A stretch of 64,000 nt of DNA from Planctomycetota bacterium (lineage in GTDB: Bacteria; Planctomycetota; Phycisphaerae; Phycisphaerales; UBA1924). The stretch is from assembly GCA_018242605.1 (NCBI GenBank), contig JAFEBP010000004.1:473655-537654 (forward strand), in the 5' to 3' direction. A program made the translations under genes and the position numbers. The notes under the pieces are model-generated. The model searched no databases. It was not told the origin of the DNA and worked only from the letters and a program-made list of their open reading frames with translations. Shown here piece by piece: positions 5,352 through 26,605 of this stretch. Every line of letters starts with the position of its first letter. Position 1 is the first letter of the stretch.

Positions 5352-7478
5352 TCAGCAACCGCCCGCTTCCCAGAAGGAGAAGAAGGTCTCGACGTCGCCG
5401 TCGGGGCCGCCGTCGAAGTTGACGTCGGAGCAGGTCACTGAGTTCTCCCAGTCGGCGTAGAACGCGGCCACGTCCGCGCCGTCGACGCCGCCGTCACCGT
5501 TGTAGTCGGCGGGGCAGAGGAAGGAGTAGAAGCACGGATCGGTGTTCTCGGTGCAGTCCAGCATGTTGGTGTAGAAGTCGGCCTTGTAGCTGAGGCTGGA
5601 GCCGGAGCCCGAGCGGGTGTGGAAGCGGTCACCGGTGGCGGTGCCGGTCAGCGGGAAGCCGCTGGAGACGAGCCAGTAGTCGCCGGCGCCGAGGAAGCGC
5701 TTGGTCTGGCCGGTGTAGTCGAGCGGAGCGGTGCCGTGGGTACGGGGAGCGCCGTCTCCGGCCGAGATGGAGAAGGCGGGCTGGAAGTAACCAGCGCCCG
5801 CGTTGGCGTCATCGCTGTAAGCGATGGACTGACCGGTGGAATCGAAGATCGTGGCGACGCCGTCGATGACGGGATCGTTCGCGCTGAAGTCGATGTCCAG
5901 GAAGGTGTACGGGGGAGAGATGGGCTGGCAGAGGGTGAACTTGATCGCGTCGGTCTCGTAGCGGGGCAGCACATAGGAAGCCGCGCCGAAGCCGGGGTCA
6001 AGGACCGTGCCGATGTCCTGGCCGCCGCGGAGGACGGGGGACTCGGACGGAGCGAGGGCCGCGCCGTTGACGTTGGTCTTGAAGTTGACGGTGTAGTCGC
6101 CGGTGCCGACCGCGTTGCCCGAGGGGGTCACGCAGTAGGCGGGGCCGAAGGACGAATCCTTCGCGGCGACCGCGAGGACGTAGGGACCTGGGTCAGGGCC
6201 GGTGCCGCCCGCGCCATCGGTGGCGAAGATTTCGCCGTTGTGGCCGTTGCGCTGACGGGCGTCAATGACTTCGGGGCCGTTGCGGTTGCCAACGCCGTAG
6301 GTGAGCAGGTCGTTGGTGCCCGAACCGCCGCCGTCGTCGGTGGGGACGTTGCCGAGGAGGTTGCCGGTGCCGTCGTACAGGGCGATGGCCAGGTCGGCGG
6401 TGGAACCTTCGGTGTCGATGTCAAGGAACTTCAGGGCAGCATCAGAGACATCCGCGCCGGCGGGCAGGGTGAACTTGAAGTACTTCGCCGTGGTGGCGGT
6501 GGCCGAACCGGTGAAGGTGTTGCCAGCGTCGGACAGGGCGAACTCCGGCACCGAGGGGGTCGGGGCGACCGGGTCGGGGGCGGAGCCGTAAAGGAACAGA
6601 TAGAGGGCTCGGCGGTTGGTGCTGGAGCCGAGGCCTTCGTAGGTGGCCGTGGTCGAGCCCGGATCGGCGAAGTTATTCAGACGACCATCGCGAGAGTAGA
6701 AGCCATCGGGGCCACCCGGGAAGAAGGGGCTGCCGGTGGGGACCGTCGCGATGGAGGTATCGTTGAAACGGATACCGTCAGACGCGCCGGGGCAGGGAGC
6801 AACCAAGCCGCGGTAGACCATGCCGACCGAGGCGTTGGGGGTGGTCGCGTCGGTCTCGAGCAGCGTCATCTTGAAGAAGAAGTCGCTGTCGGAGAGGGTG
6901 ACGTCGGCCGGGGTATCGATCGCCGAGGTGAAGAACTGGGCGATGCCGTTCCAGAAGGTGATATAGCCGCGGTACGCGCCGTTGGCGCCGGTGAAGAGGA
7001 ACGTCCTCTGGCTGCCGGGGATTTCGTTGGCGGGGTTGTAGGGCTCGGTCTGGGTGCCGCTGGCGACGGGGCCGGGGGTGTACGCGCCGTCATAGAAGTT
7101 CAGACGGACGGCGAAGGGCACCTGAACCAGGGGCGACCTCGCGCCCGAGGTGGAGACGGCCAGACCGAAGCCCGAGAGGGAGGTCGTGCCGGGGATCACA
7201 CCGATGTTCGAGCCGCCGCAGTACGAGTTGGTGTTCGAACCACCACCGGCCAGGCCCGAACGCCAGTCGCCGCCGCCCGCGGTCGGGGGACCGATGCGGT
7301 AGACGAACTGGTTGGTGGCGCGGGAGCCGTAGCTGGATGCACGCGGGTTGAGCGTGGGCATCGAGATCTGCGGCGTGTTGGGGTCCATCGCATCGTTGAA
7401 CTGCTGCGCCAGCGCGGGGACGGCAATCGCCGACCCGGCCAGTGCGCACAACACTACACACTTCTTCATCATCTTCAT
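5352..7478 (-). CDS. Secreted 708-aa protein with PPC-like domains and C-terminal GC-type dockerin
   Basis: A signal peptide (MKMMKKCVVLCALAGSAIAV, then PALAQ) directs export. AGGAG lies about 8 nt before ATG 7478. The long middle contains beta-rich segments resembling bacterial pre-peptidase C-terminal domains (KYFKFTLPAGADVSDAALK, DLAIALYDGTGNLLG, YVLAVAAK). The C-terminus is the paired calcium-loop module: CPADYNGDGGVDGADV, then SDVNFDGGPDGDVETFF, ending WEAGGC. The second loop lacks one residue compared with other copies here (DGGPDG-DV instead of DGGVDGADV). The next gene at 8169-10226 is a full-length paralogue with the same loop deletion. Substrate or role is unknown; it is probably cell-surface or extracellular. 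Confidence 0.88.
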   Translation of the reverse strand: MKMMKKCVVLCALAGSAIAVPALAQQFNDAMDPNTPQISMPTLNPRASSYGSRATNQFVYRIGPPTAGGGDWRSGLAGGGSNTNSYCGGSNIGVIPGTTSLSGFGLAVSTSGARSPLVQVPFAVRLNFYDGAYTPGPVASGTQTEPYNPANEIPGSQRTFLFTGANGAYRGYITFWNGIAQFFTSAIDTPADVTLSDSDFFFKMTLLETDATTPNASVGMVYRGLVAPCPGASDGIRFNDTSIATVPTGSPFFPGGPDGFYSRDGRLNNFADPGSTTATYEGLGSSTNRRALYLFLYGSAPDPVAPTPSVPEFALSDAGNTFTGSATATTAKYFKFTLPAGADVSDAALKFLDIDTEGSTADLAIALYDGTGNLLGNVPTDDGGGSGTNDLLTYGVGNRNGPEVIDARQRNGHNGEIFATDGAGGTGPDPGPYVLAVAAKDSSFGPAYCVTPSGNAVGTGDYTVNFKTNVNGAALAPSESPVLRGGQDIGTVLDPGFGAASYVLPRYETDAIKFTLCQPISPPYTFLDIDFSANDPVIDGVATIFDSTGQSIAYSDDANAGAGYFQPAFSISAGDGAPRTHGTAPLDYTGQTKRFLGAGDYWLVSSGFPLTGTATGDRFHTRSGSGSSLSYKADFYTNMLDCTENTDPCFYSFLCPADYNGDGGVDGADVAAFYADWENSVTCSDVNFDGGPDGDVETFFSFWEAGGC

Positions 7479-8168: not shown

Positions 8169-10226
8169 TCAGCAGCCGCCGGCTTCCCAGAAGGAGAAGA
8201 AGGTCTCAACGTCGCCATCGGGGCCGCCGTCGAGGTTCACGTCGGAGCAGCCGACGCTGTTCTCCCAATCGGCGTAGAACGCCGCGACATCGCCGCCGTC
8301 GACACCGCCGTCGCCGTTGTAATCGGCGGGGCAGCAGTAGACCAGGGCGCAGGGATCGGAGCTGGGGGAGCAGAGGGTGTTGGTGTACACCGTCACGTTG
8401 TAGGGCAGGCTGTTGGTGACGTTCGCACCGCGGGCGTGGAAGCGGTCGCGGCCGGAGGCGACGGTGAGGGGGCTGTCGGCGGTGCCGAGGTAGTAGTCAC
8501 CGGCAGATAGGAAGCGGCGGGTCTGGCCCATGAAGGGCACGGGGTTGGTGCCGTGCATGCGGGGGGCCGTGAAATCGCCGAAGGAGAGGAGCGGACGGTT
8601 GTACTCCGGTGTGGCGTCGTAGCTGGTGACAACGACGTTGCCGCTGGAGTCAAAGAGCACGGCCGCGTAGTTGGCGACGGCGGCGGAGGCGCTCCAGTCG
8701 AAGTCCATGTACTCGGGGGTGCAGATGTCCTGGCAGACGGTGAACTTGAGGAAGTCGGCTTCGGCGTGCTGGGTGGTGTAGTCGGCCATGTTGGCGCCCG
8801 GGTCAACGATGGTGCCCAGATCGGAGCCACCGCGGAGGAGTGGAGGCACGGAGGCGGCCAGAGCGCCGCCGGAGACGTTGGTCTCGAAGTTCAGGGCATA
8901 GTCGCCGCCGCCGGCCGCGACAGCGCTGATGCAGAACCCGGGGCCGAAGTCGGTGCCGGTGTCGGCGACGGCGACGTAGTAGGGGCCGGGGTTGTTGGCG
9001 CGGCGGATTTCACCGTTGTGACCATCGCGCTGGCGGCCCGCGGCGGCTTCGGGGCCGTCGCGGCGGCCGATGCCGTAGGTGAGCAGATCGTTGGTGCCGC
9101 TCAGGTTGGAGTCGTCATCGGAACCGACGAGACCGACGAGCGCGCCGTTGCTGTCGTACAGAGCGATGGTGGTATCGGCGATCGAACCGTCGGTGGAGAT
9201 GTCCAGGAAGCGGTACGCGGCGTCGCTGACATCGGCGCTGCCGGGGAGGTTGAAGCGCCACCAGTTGACGCCGCCGCTGGCGAGGGTGCCGGTGCGGGAG
9301 TTGCGGCTGGGGAGATCGGCGAGGTTGCCGATGTCGGTGAAGACCGCCGGGGGCGTGGGGGCGGCGGCGATGCCGCGGAGGATCAGGTAGAGCCCTCGCG
9401 GGGTCGTTGCTCCGCGGGCGGGGAAGATCTCGTCTTCCGACGCGGTGGTGGTGGTGTCGTCGTAGCGGCTGAGGAAGCCGTCACGGTTGCCGCCGCCGGC
9501 GGCGTTGTCGGCCCAGCGGTAAATGTCGGAGGAACCGGGGCAGGGGCGACCCGTGGAGCGGAAGATCGGACCGATCACGGGGCTGGGGGCGGACATGTCG
9601 TAGGTGAGGCATTCTTCGACAACGAAGAACGTGGCGGGGACGGAGAGGCCGACGCCTTCAACGGAGAGGTTGAAGGGCAGATAGATGTCGTCGTAGTTGT
9701 TGATATAGCCCGCCGCGGCGCCGCCGGGGGGAACCTGACCGGCTTCGTCGACGCCGGAGAGTTGGAAGGTGCGCTGTCCGATGAAGTTGTTGCGATCAAA
9801 GGCCTCCGGCGGCGGGACGAGCGGTCCGGCGTTGGTGATCTGGGTGATGTCGTAGGGGGGCGTGGTGTAGAACTTGAAGCGGATGGCGTAGGGGACGAAG
9901 GTCGGAGGGTCGGTGGCCGCGCCGTCGCAGCTCACGCAGAAGCCGAGGCCGTTGAGGACGGCGGGGCGACCGATGTTGATGTCGTCGCCGCCCATGTATG
10001 CGCCGCCGCGGCCGGCGAAACCGCCGACGCCGGGGTCACCGAGGCGGTAGACGATCTGCTGGGTATCGCGGCCGGCGTAACCGCCGGGGTTGTTCGCGCG
10101 GACGATCTTGCCGTTGTACCGCACGGGCATGTTGATTTCATCTTGCGCCGCGGCGGAGAGGCACATCGCGGCGCCCGCCGCGGCGATGATGCCGAACTTA
10201 AGAACGGACAGTTTCGCACTCATCAT
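8169..10226 (-). CDS. Secreted 685-aa protein, tandem paralogue of the 708-aa dockerin protein
   Basis: I start it at ATG 10226: AGAGGAG lies about 8 nt upstream and the protein then opens with a normal signal peptide (MMSAKLSVLKFGIIAAAGAA, then MCLSAAAQ). The frame is open to 10304 but that part is not signal-like. The order matches the neighbour at 5352: IVYRLGDPGVGG, a region with QRTFQLSG, PPC-like segments (WWRFNLPGSADVSDAAYRFL, TTIALYDSNGALVGL, NDLLTYGIGRRDGPE) and a C-terminal dockerin pair (CPADYNGDGGVDGGDV, SDVNLDGGPDGDVETFF, WEAGGC). The two genes are a tandem duplication. Function is unknown. Confidence 0.88.
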   Translation of the reverse strand: MMSAKLSVLKFGIIAAAGAAMCLSAAAQDEINMPVRYNGKIVRANNPGGYAGRDTQQIVYRLGDPGVGGFAGRGGAYMGGDDINIGRPAVLNGLGFCVSCDGAATDPPTFVPYAIRFKFYTTPPYDITQITNAGPLVPPPEAFDRNNFIGQRTFQLSGVDEAGQVPPGGAAAGYINNYDDIYLPFNLSVEGVGLSVPATFFVVEECLTYDMSAPSPVIGPIFRSTGRPCPGSSDIYRWADNAAGGGNRDGFLSRYDDTTTTASEDEIFPARGATTPRGLYLILRGIAAAPTPPAVFTDIGNLADLPSRNSRTGTLASGGVNWWRFNLPGSADVSDAAYRFLDISTDGSIADTTIALYDSNGALVGLVGSDDDSNLSGTNDLLTYGIGRRDGPEAAAGRQRDGHNGEIRRANNPGPYYVAVADTGTDFGPGFCISAVAAGGGDYALNFETNVSGGALAASVPPLLRGGSDLGTIVDPGANMADYTTQHAEADFLKFTVCQDICTPEYMDFDWSASAAVANYAAVLFDSSGNVVVTSYDATPEYNRPLLSFGDFTAPRMHGTNPVPFMGQTRRFLSAGDYYLGTADSPLTVASGRDRFHARGANVTNSLPYNVTVYTNTLCSPSSDPCALVYCCPADYNGDGGVDGGDVAAFYADWENSVGCSDVNLDGGPDGDVETFFSFWEAGGC

Positions 10227-20620: not shown

Positions 20621-21412
20621 TCAGACCTCGAACGCCAGTTCAATCAGGCGGGGCAGAATCTCGCCGGAGGGGCCGCGGAGAACGGCGTCGACGCGGGTAG
20701 TGGCGGCGGTGTCGTCTTTGTTCACCTCAACGGTGAATGCGCCCTCTCGGGCGGCCATTTCGACGAATCCCGCGGCGGGGTAGACCACGCTACTGGTGCC
20801 GATGGTGAAGAACAGGTCGGCCTTGGGGGCCAGATCGAAGGCCGCGAGGAGAACGGACTCGGGGAGGGCCTCGCCGAACCAGACGACGTTGGGACGGAGC
20901 AGTGCGCCGGGGTGAAAGGGCGAGGGCGGGGGAAAGCGTTCGAAGGGCGTTGGCTCGGGTTCGAAGGTCTCGCCGGTCTGAACGCAGCGCCATTCGATGA
21001 TCGAGCCGTGCAGTTCAAAGACGCGCTGCGAGCCGGCGCGGTGGTGGAGGCGGTCGACGTTCTGGGTGAAGAGGGCGAAATCGCCGCCGCGGGAAGCGAT
21101 GTGGCGCTCCATCGCGGCCAGCGCGGTGTGTCCGGGGTTGGGTTCGGCGGCGAGGCAGCCCAGGCGTCGCCAGTCGTACCAGCGGGTGACCATCTCGGGG
21201 TTGGCGTCGAAGGCTTCGGGCGTGGCGAGTTTCATGGGATCAAACTCGCGCCACAGGGCCTGCATGTCCTTGGGCATGTCGGCGGCGGTGGCTCCGCGGA
21301 AGGTGCGCAGGCCCGACTCGGCGGAGACTCCAGCGCCGGTGACGACGACGACGCGGCGGGCGACGCGGAGGCGGTCGGCGACGAGGCGGAGGATGTTGGT
21401 CTGGTCGCTCAT
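20621..21412 (-). CDS. Sirtuin (Sir2 family NAD-dependent protein deacylase), without zinc-binding cysteines
   Basis: This 263-residue protein carries the Sir2 signatures: TGAGVSAESGLRTFRG (NAD-binding loop), FTQNVDRLHHRAGS, FELHGS with the catalytic His135, RPNVVWFGEALP and IGTSSVVYPAAGF. The pair Tyr79/Arg82 in RWYDWRRL matches the YxxR pocket of class III sirtuins such as CobB/SIRT5, which remove succinyl or malonyl groups. The region that normally holds four zinc Cys (residues 140-170) has one Cys only (Cys143) and is Pro-rich. The ATG overlaps the TGA of the DUF3052 gene (ATGA), so translation is probably coupled. Confidence 0.9.
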   Translation of the reverse strand: MSDQTNILRLVADRLRVARRVVVVTGAGVSAESGLRTFRGATAADMPKDMQALWREFDPMKLATPEAFDANPEMVTRWYDWRRLGCLAAEPNPGHTALAAMERHIASRGGDFALFTQNVDRLHHRAGSQRVFELHGSIIEWRCVQTGETFEPEPTPFERFPPPSPFHPGALLRPNVVWFGEALPESVLLAAFDLAPKADLFFTIGTSSVVYPAAGFVEMAAREGAFTVEVNKDDTAATTRVDAVLRGPSGEILPRLIELAFEV

Positions 21413-21885
21413 GGCGTGCGTTTCTTTGTGGCGGGGTTTTTGTAGTTATTCGTCGTGGTCTTCGTCGGGGGCGTCGCGGGGGTGCGGTCCTTGAGGCGCT
21501 TCACGAATCGCAGGCCGGACCAGGTGTCGTCGATGGCGCAGACTTTGTTGTCCACGAGGCCCTCGGAGAGGCCGAAGGCGCGGATGTCGTTCTCGTTGAG
21601 GTCGGTGGCGACACCGGAGGTCTTCTTGGGCCACGCGGTCCAGAGGCCTCCGGATTCGCTCAACGAGGCCGCGGCGGTGCGGAAGCGGGATTCACACTCG
21701 CGGGTTGTCTTGGCGAATGCGATGGCGACGTCGAAGGGGCCTTTGCCCCTGGCGGTGAACGTGACGCCGGGGGGAAGGGCGTCGAGCGTGCGCTCGAAGC
21801 CGTCGGGGGCGGCCAGGAGGAGGACGCGGGCGTTTTCCTTGATGCCGAGTTTCTTGGCGAGTGGGGTGTTGGAGTAGCCGGCCAT
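21409..21885 (-). CDS. DUF3052-family protein
   Basis: This 158-residue cytoplasmic protein begins MAGYSNTPLAKKLGIKENAR. Family-like phrases are RVLLLAAPDGFERTLDALP, FDVAIAFAKT, GGLWTAWPKKTSGVATDLNE and GLVDNKVCAIDDTWSGLRFV. The C-terminus is Thr/Lys-rich. Its biochemical role is unknown. ATG 21885 is preferred over the upstream frame to 21957. It overlaps the sirtuin start. Its first 41 codons and 17 bp of leader are repeated at 24798-24939. Confidence 0.82.
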   Translation of the reverse strand: MAGYSNTPLAKKLGIKENARVLLLAAPDGFERTLDALPPGVTFTARGKGPFDVAIAFAKTTRECESRFRTAAASLSESGGLWTAWPKKTSGVATDLNENDIRAFGLSEGLVDNKVCAIDDTWSGLRFVKRLKDRTPATPPTKTTTNNYKNPATKKRTP

Positions 21886-21902
21886 GGGGGATGGTTGGGG
21901 GG
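21761..21902. repeat. 142-bp direct repeat, copy A (5' end of the DUF3052 gene)
   Basis: This segment matches 24798-24939 without indels at a constant offset of 3037 bp, with only a handful of mismatches. It includes the DUF3052 start codon, the next 41 codons and 17 bp upstream. An inverted repeat GATCAAC (21903-21909)/GTTGATC (21922-21928) begins at the upstream edge. Confidence 0.9.
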
Positions 21903-22000
21903 GATCAACGCTCGAGTTTGAGTTGATCACGATTCGGCGCACGAGCGCCTCGGCCATGTGCAGCGATCACGACCTTGGCTCGGGCCACGTCCGCGGACGA

Positions 22001-24496
22001 TCAGCAACCACCGTTCTCCCACGCAATGAAAAACGCGGAGACGTCTGCGCCATCCACGCCGCCGTCCTGGTTCACGTCAGCGAGCGCACCACCGACTTCC
22101 CACGCGACAAAGAAGTCACTCACATCGGCACCATCGACACCGCCATCCTGATTGAAGTCCGCGGCGCAGATAGCGTCTGAAACGGTCAGCATGGCTACTT
22201 CAGAAACGACCTCCCCACACGAATTCTCAACGCGGCAGGAGTACTCACCGACGTCTGTGTCATCGACGCCGTACAGGGTCAGCCAAGGTGTGGTTGCGCC
22301 TTCCGCGACGCTCCCTCCGGGGCGAGGACCGTCGGCAATGGCAACCCCGTTCTGAAGCCACTGAAATGTCAGTGGCGGCGATCCGGAGATAACAGTCTCG
22401 AAGGTGGCAACTCCGCCCCGTCGCGCGGATGATGTCAAAGGCTGTGATTCGACTGTTGGAACTCGTACACGTTGCCATTGGGCGAAGTACGCGGAAGGTC
22501 TTCCGTCTACTGAGACGAATGCGCCGCCGATTGCGAGGCGATCATCAGCCACAGTCATGCTCGCGATATCCAACGGCGCTCCAGGCACTGGAACCCAAGT
22601 GTTGCCGTTGAATCGGGCGAGGCCATAGGCACCGCCGACGCCCGGGAAACTGCCTGCGACGTACAAATCGCCGTCATATCGAACGATGGCGTTGGCACTT
22701 CCGAGCAATCCGGATCCAACTGGTCGCCATGAACTGCCATTCCACACGGCGACCGCCTGTCCCTGATCTGAGCCCTGGAAGCGAAACGCGCCAACGGCGT
22801 ACAACGAGGCACCTTCGGCAAGAAACGCCTTTACGAACAATACCTCGGCGTCGGGGAAGGGTACCCAGCCCAATACCGGGTCTTGGCGCAGAATACGCGG
22901 ACCCGATTGGGTGAAATTGACTGTGAAATTACCGCCCAGCATCGTCGCTCCCAAGTACTCGACGACCGCGGAAGCACCTCCCCGGTAGAAAACTCCTGTG
23001 CGAGGTCGGTTGTCCAGAAACAAGTACTGACCACCCGCGGCCAATGGGATGCCATGGACAATTCCAATCGCCACGCCACGGTTGCCCCCGTCGAGGTAAC
23101 CGCCGCACCAGTTGGTAACGGTAAACCCATCCGTGCACATGACCGGGGCAAAGTAAGTTCCTTCGGGATTCAAGAGCTCACCTGTAATCGCGAGGCCGCC
23201 AGAATATCCGACCATAGCGAGGGGTTCGCCTCCATAATCCACAGCTACCTCTCGCCACGACTCACCGTCCTTGATCACAACGAATGACAGCGGTTCGCTG
23301 CCAACATACGCAAATCTTCCTCCCACGCAGGCACGGTTGTCAAACGTCGCGAGTGTCGTGACCGGTCGATCAAATCCACCGTGGGTTCCGACCATCGTCC
23401 ATCTCGCACTATCCCATCCCCAGACACCAAATCGGAGTTCATAGCCCAGTATCGGGCAGTACATTGTCGCGCCAACCAAGAGCAGCGAACCAGCGGAAGC
23501 CATCGAGTTGAACTCTGACCAAATGTAGTTCGCTTGGGGCTTTCTTGGTCCGAGCCGACTCCAGCCGCTGCCCGTCCATCGTCCCGTGGAAACGTTGCCG
23601 TACTCGACGGCAGTACCAGCACCGACGAGTTGACCATTCCAAACTGCCAAACATCGAATGTCGAGGCCACTTGACGAAGTCGGGATGTGCCCCTGCCAGG
23701 CTGAGCCATTCCACGACGCCAGAAAGCCATACGGAAGACCGTCGATATGCTCAAACGCCCCACCGAAGTAAAGCCGGTCTTGCCAAACAACCATTGAATA
23801 CACAACACGATCAGCGCCCTGACCCATGGGCTGCCACGCGACACCGTCGAATCTGGCCACTCGGTATATCAGGTGGTACAGCGACGCGGAAAAATCACCG
23901 CACGCGTACAACTCGCCGTGATACACGGCGAGCCCACGAACATGTTGATTCAGGCCGTCTCCGAGTTGGTCCCACGCAGTCCCGTTCCATGCCGCGACGC
24001 GAGCGATTGGAACAACCCCGGACGAATCGAAGCTACCGGCGGCAATCACTCTGCCATCGAGCGATGTGATGGCTCGGACCGGACCGCCCGAAAGACCAGC
24101 GCCAACCGGCTGCCACGCGCTGCCATTCCACATCGCAATACCGTGCATCTCTGTCGATCCGGAATGGGTGAAATCACCACCGGCGTACAAGGTTCCGCCG
24201 ATGTCGGCGAAGCACCTGACCGGGCCGTCGAATCCATCGCCCAGCGGCTCCCACTGGTTGTTGCGCAGCACTGCGACCCTGAGCGCGGATGCGCCCGAAA
24301 CGACTGAGAATTCGCCGCCGATGACCGCGGTCGAACTCATGGGACCGGCTCCGTCTGGATCCCATTGCGCAACCGCCGTCACCTGTCCGTTGAATCCTGG
24401 AATCGGACCGACTGTCTCCCACGACTCACACTGCGCAAATACATGCACAATCGCGAACGCAACCGCGCTAAGGAATGAGAGCATTTTCAATGTCAT
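22001..24496 (-). CDS. Secreted kelch-like propeller protein with Ig-like domain and GC-type dockerin
   Basis: This is an 831-residue protein. ATG 24496 has GGAGG 7-8 nt upstream and a signal peptide (MTLKMLSFLSAVAFAIVHVF, then AQC). Most of the protein is a series of about 40-residue repeats of the type WNGSAWQPVGAGLSGGPVRA, alternating with LYAGGDF-like strands, which suggests a beta-propeller. An Ig-like domain follows (FQWLQNGVAIADGPRPGG, GEYSCRVENSCGEVVSEVAM). The end is ICAADFNQDGGVDGADV and LADVNQDGGVDGADV, then WENGGC. Its base composition is visibly less GC-rich than its neighbours and many codons end in A or T. The gene lies wholly between the two DUF3052 5'-end copies. Confidence 0.87.
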   Translation of the reverse strand: MTLKMLSFLSAVAFAIVHVFAQCESWETVGPIPGFNGQVTAVAQWDPDGAGPMSSTAVIGGEFSVVSGASALRVAVLRNNQWEPLGDGFDGPVRCFADIGGTLYAGGDFTHSGSTEMHGIAMWNGSAWQPVGAGLSGGPVRAITSLDGRVIAAGSFDSSGVVPIARVAAWNGTAWDQLGDGLNQHVRGLAVYHGELYACGDFSASLYHLIYRVARFDGVAWQPMGQGADRVVYSMVVWQDRLYFGGAFEHIDGLPYGFLASWNGSAWQGHIPTSSSGLDIRCLAVWNGQLVGAGTAVEYGNVSTGRWTGSGWSRLGPRKPQANYIWSEFNSMASAGSLLLVGATMYCPILGYELRFGVWGWDSARWTMVGTHGGFDRPVTTLATFDNRACVGGRFAYVGSEPLSFVVIKDGESWREVAVDYGGEPLAMVGYSGGLAITGELLNPEGTYFAPVMCTDGFTVTNWCGGYLDGGNRGVAIGIVHGIPLAAGGQYLFLDNRPRTGVFYRGGASAVVEYLGATMLGGNFTVNFTQSGPRILRQDPVLGWVPFPDAEVLFVKAFLAEGASLYAVGAFRFQGSDQGQAVAVWNGSSWRPVGSGLLGSANAIVRYDGDLYVAGSFPGVGGAYGLARFNGNTWVPVPGAPLDIASMTVADDRLAIGGAFVSVDGRPSAYFAQWQRVRVPTVESQPLTSSARRGGVATFETVISGSPPLTFQWLQNGVAIADGPRPGGSVAEGATTPWLTLYGVDDTDVGEYSCRVENSCGEVVSEVAMLTVSDAICAADFNQDGGVDGADVSDFFVAWEVGGALADVNQDGGVDGADVSAFFIAWENGGC

Positions 24497-24797
24497 TTCA
24501 AACCTCCAGTTCGAGCCATTACCGCAGCAAATCCTTCTCCGATTATCCAGTCGTATTTTCAGAGTGTACGCGAAAGACTTGGAGTCGCCACGGAGTGAAT
24601 CCTGCACTGCTGCCAGGAAGAATGCGGTACTGAGGGCGATAACTGAGAACGCTGACCAAGACTGTGTTGCCCGGAGAATGGTCGCGGTGACCGCTCGTCA
24701 CTTCGAAACGACGATCTATTGGGGAAGCGGAGGAGAAAACGAAGTGCTCGGGATAGAACTTCAGACAGGGCATCCGTGCAGGCCAAGGGTCGCGACC

Positions 24798-24939
24798 GTC
24801 ACACCGGAGGGAAGGGCGTCGAGCGTGCGTTCGAAGCCGTCGGGGGCGGACAGGAGGAGGACGCGGGCGTTTTCCTTGATGCCGAGTTTCTTGGCGCGTG
24901 GGGTGTTGGAGTAGCCGGCCATGGGGGATGGTTGGGGGG
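24798..24939 (-). pseudogene. Truncated duplicate of the DUF3052 gene 5' end (repeat copy B)
   Basis: An ATG at 24922 (minus) opens MAGYSNTPRAKKLGIKENAR and continues through LLSAPDGFERTLDALPSG, then loses similarity after about 41 codons (VTVATLGLHGCPV). The match to the intact gene at 21761-21902 includes the leader. It cannot encode a functional DUF3052 protein. The rest of the gap between the dockerin gene (24496) and mmsA (25112) holds no other recognisable gene. Confidence 0.88.
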
Positions 24940-25111
24940 TGCGAGGGTTGGAGTGGGCTGGGCAGACGCCTCTGCGGGAGAAGGCGCCTTGACTTGAACT
25001 TGGACTGCCAACGCGGGGTGTTTCGCCCGCGGAAAGAGCCAGAAGAAGAATGGCCGGGACGGCCAAGCCACGGTGTTCCTAAACTCACGCATCAATACCA
25101 CGGAGAAACAC

Positions 25112-26605
25112 ATGGCTTCCACACCGGCACGAGTCGAGCACGTCATTGGCGGCAAGCGGTCACAGGGCGAGTCGTCGCCGACGCATGCGGTGATCAACCC
25201 CGCGACTGGGCAGCAGATCGCGCAGGTGGAGATGGAGTCAATGCGGGCGGTAGAGAGCGCCGTCGCGGCGGCGTACGAGGCGTTCCCGGCGTGGGCGGCC
25301 ACGCCGGTGGGCGACCGCTGCCAGGTGATGTTCAAGTACAAGAGCGTGCTGGAGCAGCACTTCGAGGAACTGGCGGGGATGATCGTGCAGGAGCACGGCA
25401 AGACCATGGCCGAGGCCCGCGGCGACGTGCGTCGCGGCATCGACTGCGTGGAGTTCGCGTGCTGCGCGCCCACGCTGCTGATGGGGCGGACGCTCCCGCA
25501 GATCGCGGTGAGCAGTTCGTTCTGCCGCACGGAGGACAAGAGCGGGGTGGGGATCGACAGCACGGTGGACCGCGTGCCGCTGGGCGTGTGCGTGGGGATC
25601 ACGCCGTTCAACTTCCCGGTGATGGTGCCGCTGTGGATGTGGCCGATGGCGGTGGCGTGCGGCAACACGTTCATTCTCAAGCCCAGCGAGAAGGTGCCGC
25701 TGAGCGCGGTGCGGGAAGTGGAGCTGGCGCACGAGGCGGGGCTGCCGGCGGGCGTGCTGAACCTCGTGACGGGCGGGCCCAAGGTCGTGGATGCGCTGAT
25801 CACGCACGAGGATGTGCGGGCGGTGTCGTTCGTGGGCTCATCGAAGGTAGCCAAGCACGTGTATGAGACGGCCTCCAAGGCGGGCAAGCGGGCCCAGTGC
25901 ATGGGCGGCGCGAAGAACTACATGGTGATCATGCCGGACGCGAACCGCGGGGCGGTGATCGAGGGCGTGGTGGGCTCGGCGTTCGGCAACAGCGGGCAGA
26001 GGTGCCTGGCGGGGAGCGTGGCGATCGCGGTGGGCGACGCCGCGGAGTGGTTCGTGCCGGCGATGATGGAGGCGGTGAACAAGATCAAGGTCGCGGCGGG
26101 CAACGAGCCGGGCGTGGGCATGGGGCCGGTGATCGACGTGGCGAGCAAGCAGCGGATCCTGGGGTTCATCGAGAGCGGCGTGCAGGACGGGGCGACGCTG
26201 GCGGTGGACGGACGGCGGGCCGACTGCCCGGCGCAGGGCTGCTTCGTCGGGCCGACGATCTTCGATCACGTGCGTCCGGGGATGCGGATCGCGGACGAAG
26301 AGATCTTCGGGCCCGTGCTGAGCGTGATGCGCGAGGACACGCTCGACGCGGCGATCGCGACGCTCAACCGCTCGCGGTACGGCAACATGGGGGTGATCTT
26401 CACGTCCAGCGGCTACTCGGCGCGGCGGTTCAAGAGCCACGCGCAGGCGGGCATGATCGGCATCAACGTCGGCGTGCCGGCGCCGATGGCCGTGTTCCCG
26501 TTCGCGGGGTGGAAGCAGTCGTTCTACGGCGATCTGCACGCCAACGGCGAGGACGCGGTGAAGTTCTACACCGAGAGCAAGGTCGTCGTCACGCGGTGGA
26601 TGTGA
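25112..26605 (+). CDS. mmsA: CoA-acylating methylmalonate-semialdehyde dehydrogenase
   Basis: This 497-residue aldehyde dehydrogenase oxidises methylmalonate or malonate semialdehyde to propionyl- or acetyl-CoA, in valine and thymine/uracil catabolism. Family marks are INPATGQQIAQV, VQEHGKTMAEARGDVRRGID, GITPFNFPVMVPLWMWPMA (Asn of the oxyanion hole), NTFILKPSEKVPLS, CMGGAKNYMVIMPDA and GNSGQRCLAGSVAI with the nucleophile Cys298. The C-terminus AGWKQSFYGDLHANGEDAVK is also MmsA-like. ATG 25112 has GGAG about 8 nt upstream. Its stop is 10 bp from the convergent dihydropyrimidinase gene, which fits a pyrimidine breakdown locus. Confidence 0.94.
   Translation: MASTPARVEHVIGGKRSQGESSPTHAVINPATGQQIAQVEMESMRAVESAVAAAYEAFPAWAATPVGDRCQVMFKYKSVLEQHFEELAGMIVQEHGKTMAEARGDVRRGIDCVEFACCAPTLLMGRTLPQIAVSSSFCRTEDKSGVGIDSTVDRVPLGVCVGITPFNFPVMVPLWMWPMAVACGNTFILKPSEKVPLSAVREVELAHEAGLPAGVLNLVTGGPKVVDALITHEDVRAVSFVGSSKVAKHVYETASKAGKRAQCMGGAKNYMVIMPDANRGAVIEGVVGSAFGNSGQRCLAGSVAIAVGDAAEWFVPAMMEAVNKIKVAAGNEPGVGMGPVIDVASKQRILGFIESGVQDGATLAVDGRRADCPAQGCFVGPTIFDHVRPGMRIADEEIFGPVLSVMREDTLDAAIATLNRSRYGNMGVIFTSSGYSARRFKSHAQAGMIGINVGVPAPMAVFPFAGWKQSFYGDLHANGEDAVKFYTESKVVVTRWM

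Follow-up and report, generated by a model that had tools for sequence, protein, structure and literature searches.

How did a gene of clearly lower GC content than its surroundings come to lie between two direct copies of the start of another gene? The locus was analysed within a window of 64,000 nucleotides, the whole stretch of DNA to which the positions below refer. Its features, in order, are as follows.

20621..21412, minus strand: Sir2-family deacylase gene, downstream of the DUF3052-like gene (PF02146, E=1.5e-37)
21409..21885, minus strand: intact DUF3052-like gene, 158 aa, 59–62% identity to its best homologues in other genomes
21761..21902, minus strand: copy A of the repeat, a 17-nt leader plus the first 41 codons of the intact DUF3052-like gene; keeps L9
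21903..21928, no strand: inverted repeat GATCAAC-12 nt-GTTGATC at the edge of the insert; weak fold (z -1.9)
21903..24797, no strand: segment between the copies, 2895 bp, the probable insert; GC 0.588 against 0.66 around it
22001..24496, minus strand: gene for an 831-aa, probably secreted protein with beta-propeller-like repeats, an Ig-like domain (680–768) and a GC-type dockerin (777–829)
24798..24939, minus strand: copy B of the repeat, a dead 5' fragment leading into a truncated frame of 53 codons; L9R, A25S, P39S and an early stop
25112..26605, plus strand: mmsA-type methylmalonate-semialdehyde dehydrogenase gene, divergent from copy B (TIGR01722, 580 bits)

The direct repeat

The original prediction described a 142-bp segment present twice in the same orientation, free of indels and with few mismatches, and this is what the alignment gives: copies A and B run in the same direction and align without a gap, with 6 mismatches in 142 bp (21761–21902 and 24798–24939). 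With the ragged edge included, the match extends over 146 bp (21757–21902 and 24794–24939; 95.2% identity, 7 mismatches). Four of the seven mismatches fall within the first 15 bp, at the edge corresponding to codons 39 to 43 (P=0.003 at this fixed width, 0.02 after allowing for a scan over edge widths), leaving a well-conserved core of approximately 131 bp with 3 mismatches (97.7% identity). Beyond the core, the joint at this edge is an imperfect match of 11 out of 14 bp. The outer edge of the repeat is sharp and is located 17 nt before the ATG. The full-length repeat occurs at these two places only in the whole 4.98-Mb assembly, the next best pieces being 26 and 34 bp, and a match of this kind has an E of about 1e-61; a chance origin of the pair is excluded. 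The divergence of the copies (2.3% for the core, up to 4.2%) and the decay of one of them make the event, predicted to be recent, only moderately so.

Copy A forms the beginning of the intact 158-aa gene. The name DUF3052 given to it originally stands in so far as the gene is real and its product is a member of a widespread family, as found by a homologue search of GTDB contigs, but the Pfam DUF3052 match of the protein is below threshold (E 0.11). The gene is adjacent to or near a Sir2 gene in the relatives L060, L062, L119, L133 and L136, and the recurrence of this pairing in several relatives indicates that the pair is old. Copy B retains the 41 codons of the repeat in a frame that stops after 53 codons, and 3 of the 6 differences in 142 bp are protein-altering. 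Residue 9 is leucine in all 93 homologues checked; in copy B it is replaced by arginine. Between the copies, Ka is not significantly different from Ks (3 replacement and 3 silent changes, P=0.18), and these counts do not separate relaxed from ordinary constraint, so that the assignment of copy B rests on L9R and the truncation. Judged by these two features, copy B is a dead, decaying relic.

The enclosed segment and its dockerin gene

The 831-aa dockerin gene is the single long gene in the segment. Its product has a signal-like start, as read from the sequence, and a profile search gives matches to PF07679 and PF12768. It resembles the GC-type dockerin domain-anchored proteins (NCBIfam NF041540) in its C-terminal dockerin, which ends in FFIAWENGGC, and in the Ig-like domain that precedes it, but differs from them in scoring 26.5 bits (E=6e-6) against a cut-off of 29 bits and in having a GC3 far below that of the other members sampled in this genome. 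The conserved motif of the dockerin end is common to paralogues, with 73–84% identity to genes about 40 kb away. The genome contains 225 matches to the 831-aa protein; among the matches listed, most cover the Ig and dockerin parts. A search of the genome (87% complete) for the cohesin partner gave no PF00963 match. Taken together, the number of matches and the lack of a cohesin hit indicate that the dockerin genes are a native repertoire, unlike a classical cellulosome in appearance. At the DNA level, the segment matches other places in the genome only at dockerin-coding 3' ends, the closest relatives of the 3' end being on the same contig, and its non-coding edges have no meaningful match elsewhere.

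As predicted, the dockerin gene is clearly less GC-rich than its surroundings: its GC content is 0.59 and that of the window 0.66. A 301-bp stretch upstream of the gene is lower still (0.545). The gene has a GC3 of 0.62, below that of every other among the 118 dockerin genes sampled in approximately 0.86 Mb (mean 0.83, sd 0.06). The depression spans the whole gene and includes the dockerin end (0.68 against 0.82 in the others). The codon-usage distance, the second measure of composition, is high but not extreme, ranking only 12th of 180 long genes. The gene was originally called foreign; this has to be qualified, as the gene is a GC3 outlier of its family but the family itself is native, with well over a hundred members. 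The GC3 and codon pattern fits a lower-GC donor and falls short of proof. On compositional grounds, the gene was probably acquired from a related donor of lower GC content.

Further groups of dockerin genes were noted. Genes of the GC type, roughly a dozen or more and mainly on the minus strand, follow one another across 36804–62376 of the window. In L187 (6524–12493), a tandem pair of dockerin genes, of 898 and 894 aa, has starts and ends that are 95% identical in DNA, and the middles are not reported at 85% identity or above; the pattern suggests that the ends were converted or that the middles change fast. In L192, two genes have dockerin-coding 3' ends (6364–6535 and 9603–9774), 3 kb from each other, that share 96.5% identity over 172 bp, possibly by recent module exchange.

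The junction in relatives

The DUF3052-like, mmsA and Sir2 genes were searched for in 21–61 genomes each, and the DUF3052-like gene was never seen beside mmsA. On GTDB contigs searched with the DUF3052-like gene, the flanks were likewise never adjacent. Three genomes of the same genus lack the DUF3052-like gene, and in G001 (2 contigs) the distance from Sir2 to mmsA is about 460 kb. As the flanks are adjacent in no relative searched, the junction is specific to this species or lineage among those sampled. Neither an empty site nor the arrangement of a donor was found among the genomes searched; with no DUF3052-like gene next to mmsA in any of them there is no empty site for comparison, and insertion is therefore unproven.

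Search for signs of a mobile element

The insert carries neither a transposase gene, in agreement with the original prediction, nor the terminal inverted repeats by which a transposon or IS would be recognised. The inverted repeat noted at copy A is real and abuts it on the insert side, but nothing marks it as a transposon end: no partner of GATCAAC/GTTGATC was seen at the other end of the insert, the GATCAAC-12-GTTGATC arrangement is unique in the window and in all sampled DNA searched, and its fold is weak. It was rejected as such an end. No site-specific recombinase was found in the insert or the window, all nine PF00589 matches being elsewhere in the genome. A phage origin of the cargo (no match) and a plasmid origin (only distant plasmid-borne Hymenobacter matches, about 26% identical) were also rejected. 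A promoter scan gave no sigma-70-like site, with 1.3 expected by chance.

Two other small repeats lie in the window. A short dispersed motif, GGCCGGGACGGCCAAGCCACGGTG, is located upstream of mmsA (about 25040–25075) and is also present on C11 and C28 and, closely spaced, on C5. An overlapping tandem repeat with a period of about 234 bp and 86% identity spans 98–630.

Other low-GC stretches bracketed by repeats

The scan for repeats covered 2.05 Mb, taken as stretches of the genome. It gave 47 low-copy local repeats, all direct and none inverted, most of them paralogous genes or tandem arrays. Removal of these left five non-paralogous repeats (at least 87% identity, 100–181 bp; screened partly by eye and not blind), the present locus included. 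The DNA enclosed has a GC content of 0.516–0.601 in all five; 3% of random 2.5-kb windows have a GC content of 0.60 or less. The other four are the following.

C27:275082/277610 (G000:C27:275082-277790; L203 83-2791): 181-bp direct repeat, 95%, of the end of an AAA-type ATPase gene
C5:1008/2631: repeat bracketing a low-GC stretch
C5:208219/209827: repeat bracketing a low-GC stretch, with several local copies
C5:322435/323672: repeat bracketing a low-GC stretch, enclosing the body of the gene itself

The 2.3-kb low-GC interior at C27:275082 contains fragments of at least two transposases (DDE_Tnp_1 and DDE_3). At two of these four loci a repeat boundary and a gene boundary coincide or lie no more than 14 nt apart: the repeat at C27:275082-275262 terminates on a stop codon and that at C5:322435 begins 14 nt before an ATG. 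An ABC-transporter-like repeat of 61 bp at C27:371918 was left out, since it is probably a Walker A sequence shared by paralogues. We regard the set as a lead rather than a result, since the inspection was not blind, C5:208219 is multi-copy and a decayed tandem gene may account for C5:322435.

Origin of the arrangement

Insertion with duplication of flanking sequence, as originally proposed, is the best-supported reading, given the outlying GC3, a junction present in no relative searched, the relic nature of copy B and the similar loci, although it is unproven. We infer both the direction (insertion rather than copying of a fragment) and the mechanism. Specifically, we see about an even chance that approximately 2.9 kb with the lower-GC dockerin gene was inserted by one-sided, homology-assisted illegitimate recombination. 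The donor would be a related cell with a dockerin gene upstream of the same DUF3052-like gene. Incoming DNA would pair by homology inside the DUF3052-like gene, and its other end would be joined without real homology near codon 40 of the resident copy, at the imperfect 14-bp match GAnCGTnACnCCGG. The outcome would be the addition of about 2.9 kb between the DUF3052-like/Sir2 pair and mmsA, with a duplicate gene start left on the far side. Copy A would be the start of the gene now used, and copy B the former start of the resident gene, still beside mmsA. Donor and resident flanks would diverge at the outer edge, located 17 nt ahead of the ATG; the homologous part would stop at the gene end because the neighbours differ there between the two genomes. 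The repeats that end at or near gene ends at two of the other loci fit this expectation. With a one-sided homologous event and an illegitimate joint combined in this way, a single new joint suffices to explain the anatomy.

Homology-facilitated illegitimate recombination is known in the naturally competent bacteria Streptococcus pneumoniae, Acinetobacter baylyi and Pseudomonas stutzeri (PMC2884548). Like it, the present locus lacks a transposase; on the proposed reading it would also have homology on one side and a short match or none on the other, the imperfect 14-bp match being the candidate joint. It differs in being additive, with a 142-bp duplication, instead of a replacement or deletion. 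This difference counts against the insertion reading, as an additive outcome with duplication requires two copies of the locus to be present when it happens. The genome encodes a ComEC/Rec2-type DNA-uptake protein.

The main rival reverses the direction. The dockerin gene would already have occupied its place between mmsA and the DUF3052-like gene, and the copying, to a site approximately 3 kb upstream, would have been limited to the 142-bp start, for example by templated insertion during break repair. Copy B is indeed short and dead, the dockerin family is native with the closest DNA relatives of the 3' end on the same contig, and the direct orientation of all 47 low-copy local repeats is also in its favour. 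It requires two new joints, however, and leaves unexplained both the low-GC interior, here and at the other loci, and the stop of the repeat 17 nt before the ATG. We consider it possible, if doubtful.

Duplication of a gene end, with one copy intact and the other broken, is the usual outcome of site-specific integration. An element bearing its own copy of the 5' end could have entered the gene in the manner of an attachment site, its integrase since lost or acting in trans. The present locus shares with gene-end-duplicating integrative elements an intact gene on one side, a broken end on the other and direct orientation, and the nine tyrosine-recombinase matches elsewhere in the genome also speak for this reading. 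The present loci nevertheless lack an integrase, the window as well as the insert being free of recombinases; the target is different at each, with no relation in sequence; and the cargo has neither a phage match nor a close plasmid one. Integration of this kind is very unlikely. Marginally less probable again is a widely staggered break, in which fill-in and end joining around a captured fragment would leave a long target duplication. Direct repeats around an insert are the product expected, but Ku was found in none of 11 genomes (this one, 87% complete, and 10 relatives; the Bacillus subtilis positive control was found), which disfavours such end joining. An assembly chimera joining two strains at a shared gene start is the least credible of all: although the assembly is a metagenome-like bin of 32 contigs with 86.6% completeness and no strain replicate, copies differing at 6–7 sites would not be joined by long exact overlaps, and the decay of copy B is real and affects an invariant residue.

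Implications

Whether the gene was inserted or the fragment copied, the relic start region now lies upstream of the dockerin gene. The leader that the DUF3052-like/Sir2 pair has in common with the relic copy is only 17 nt long, and transcription of the pair probably starts in the insert or comes from read-through. Taken alone, the locus is an ordinary genome rearrangement; a few scars of similar shape are present in the same genome. The broader proposal, that the lineage repeatedly gains low-GC genes by additive recombination without a transposase, each insert accompanied by a 100–180 bp duplicate of a gene end, is speculative and rather unlikely; such a route could feed the dockerin repertoire. 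The locus looks like the gain of a gene without a mobile element, and its scar can still be read. Should scars of this kind prove common in the lineage, they would offer a way to date and trace the assembly of its many secreted dockerin proteins.
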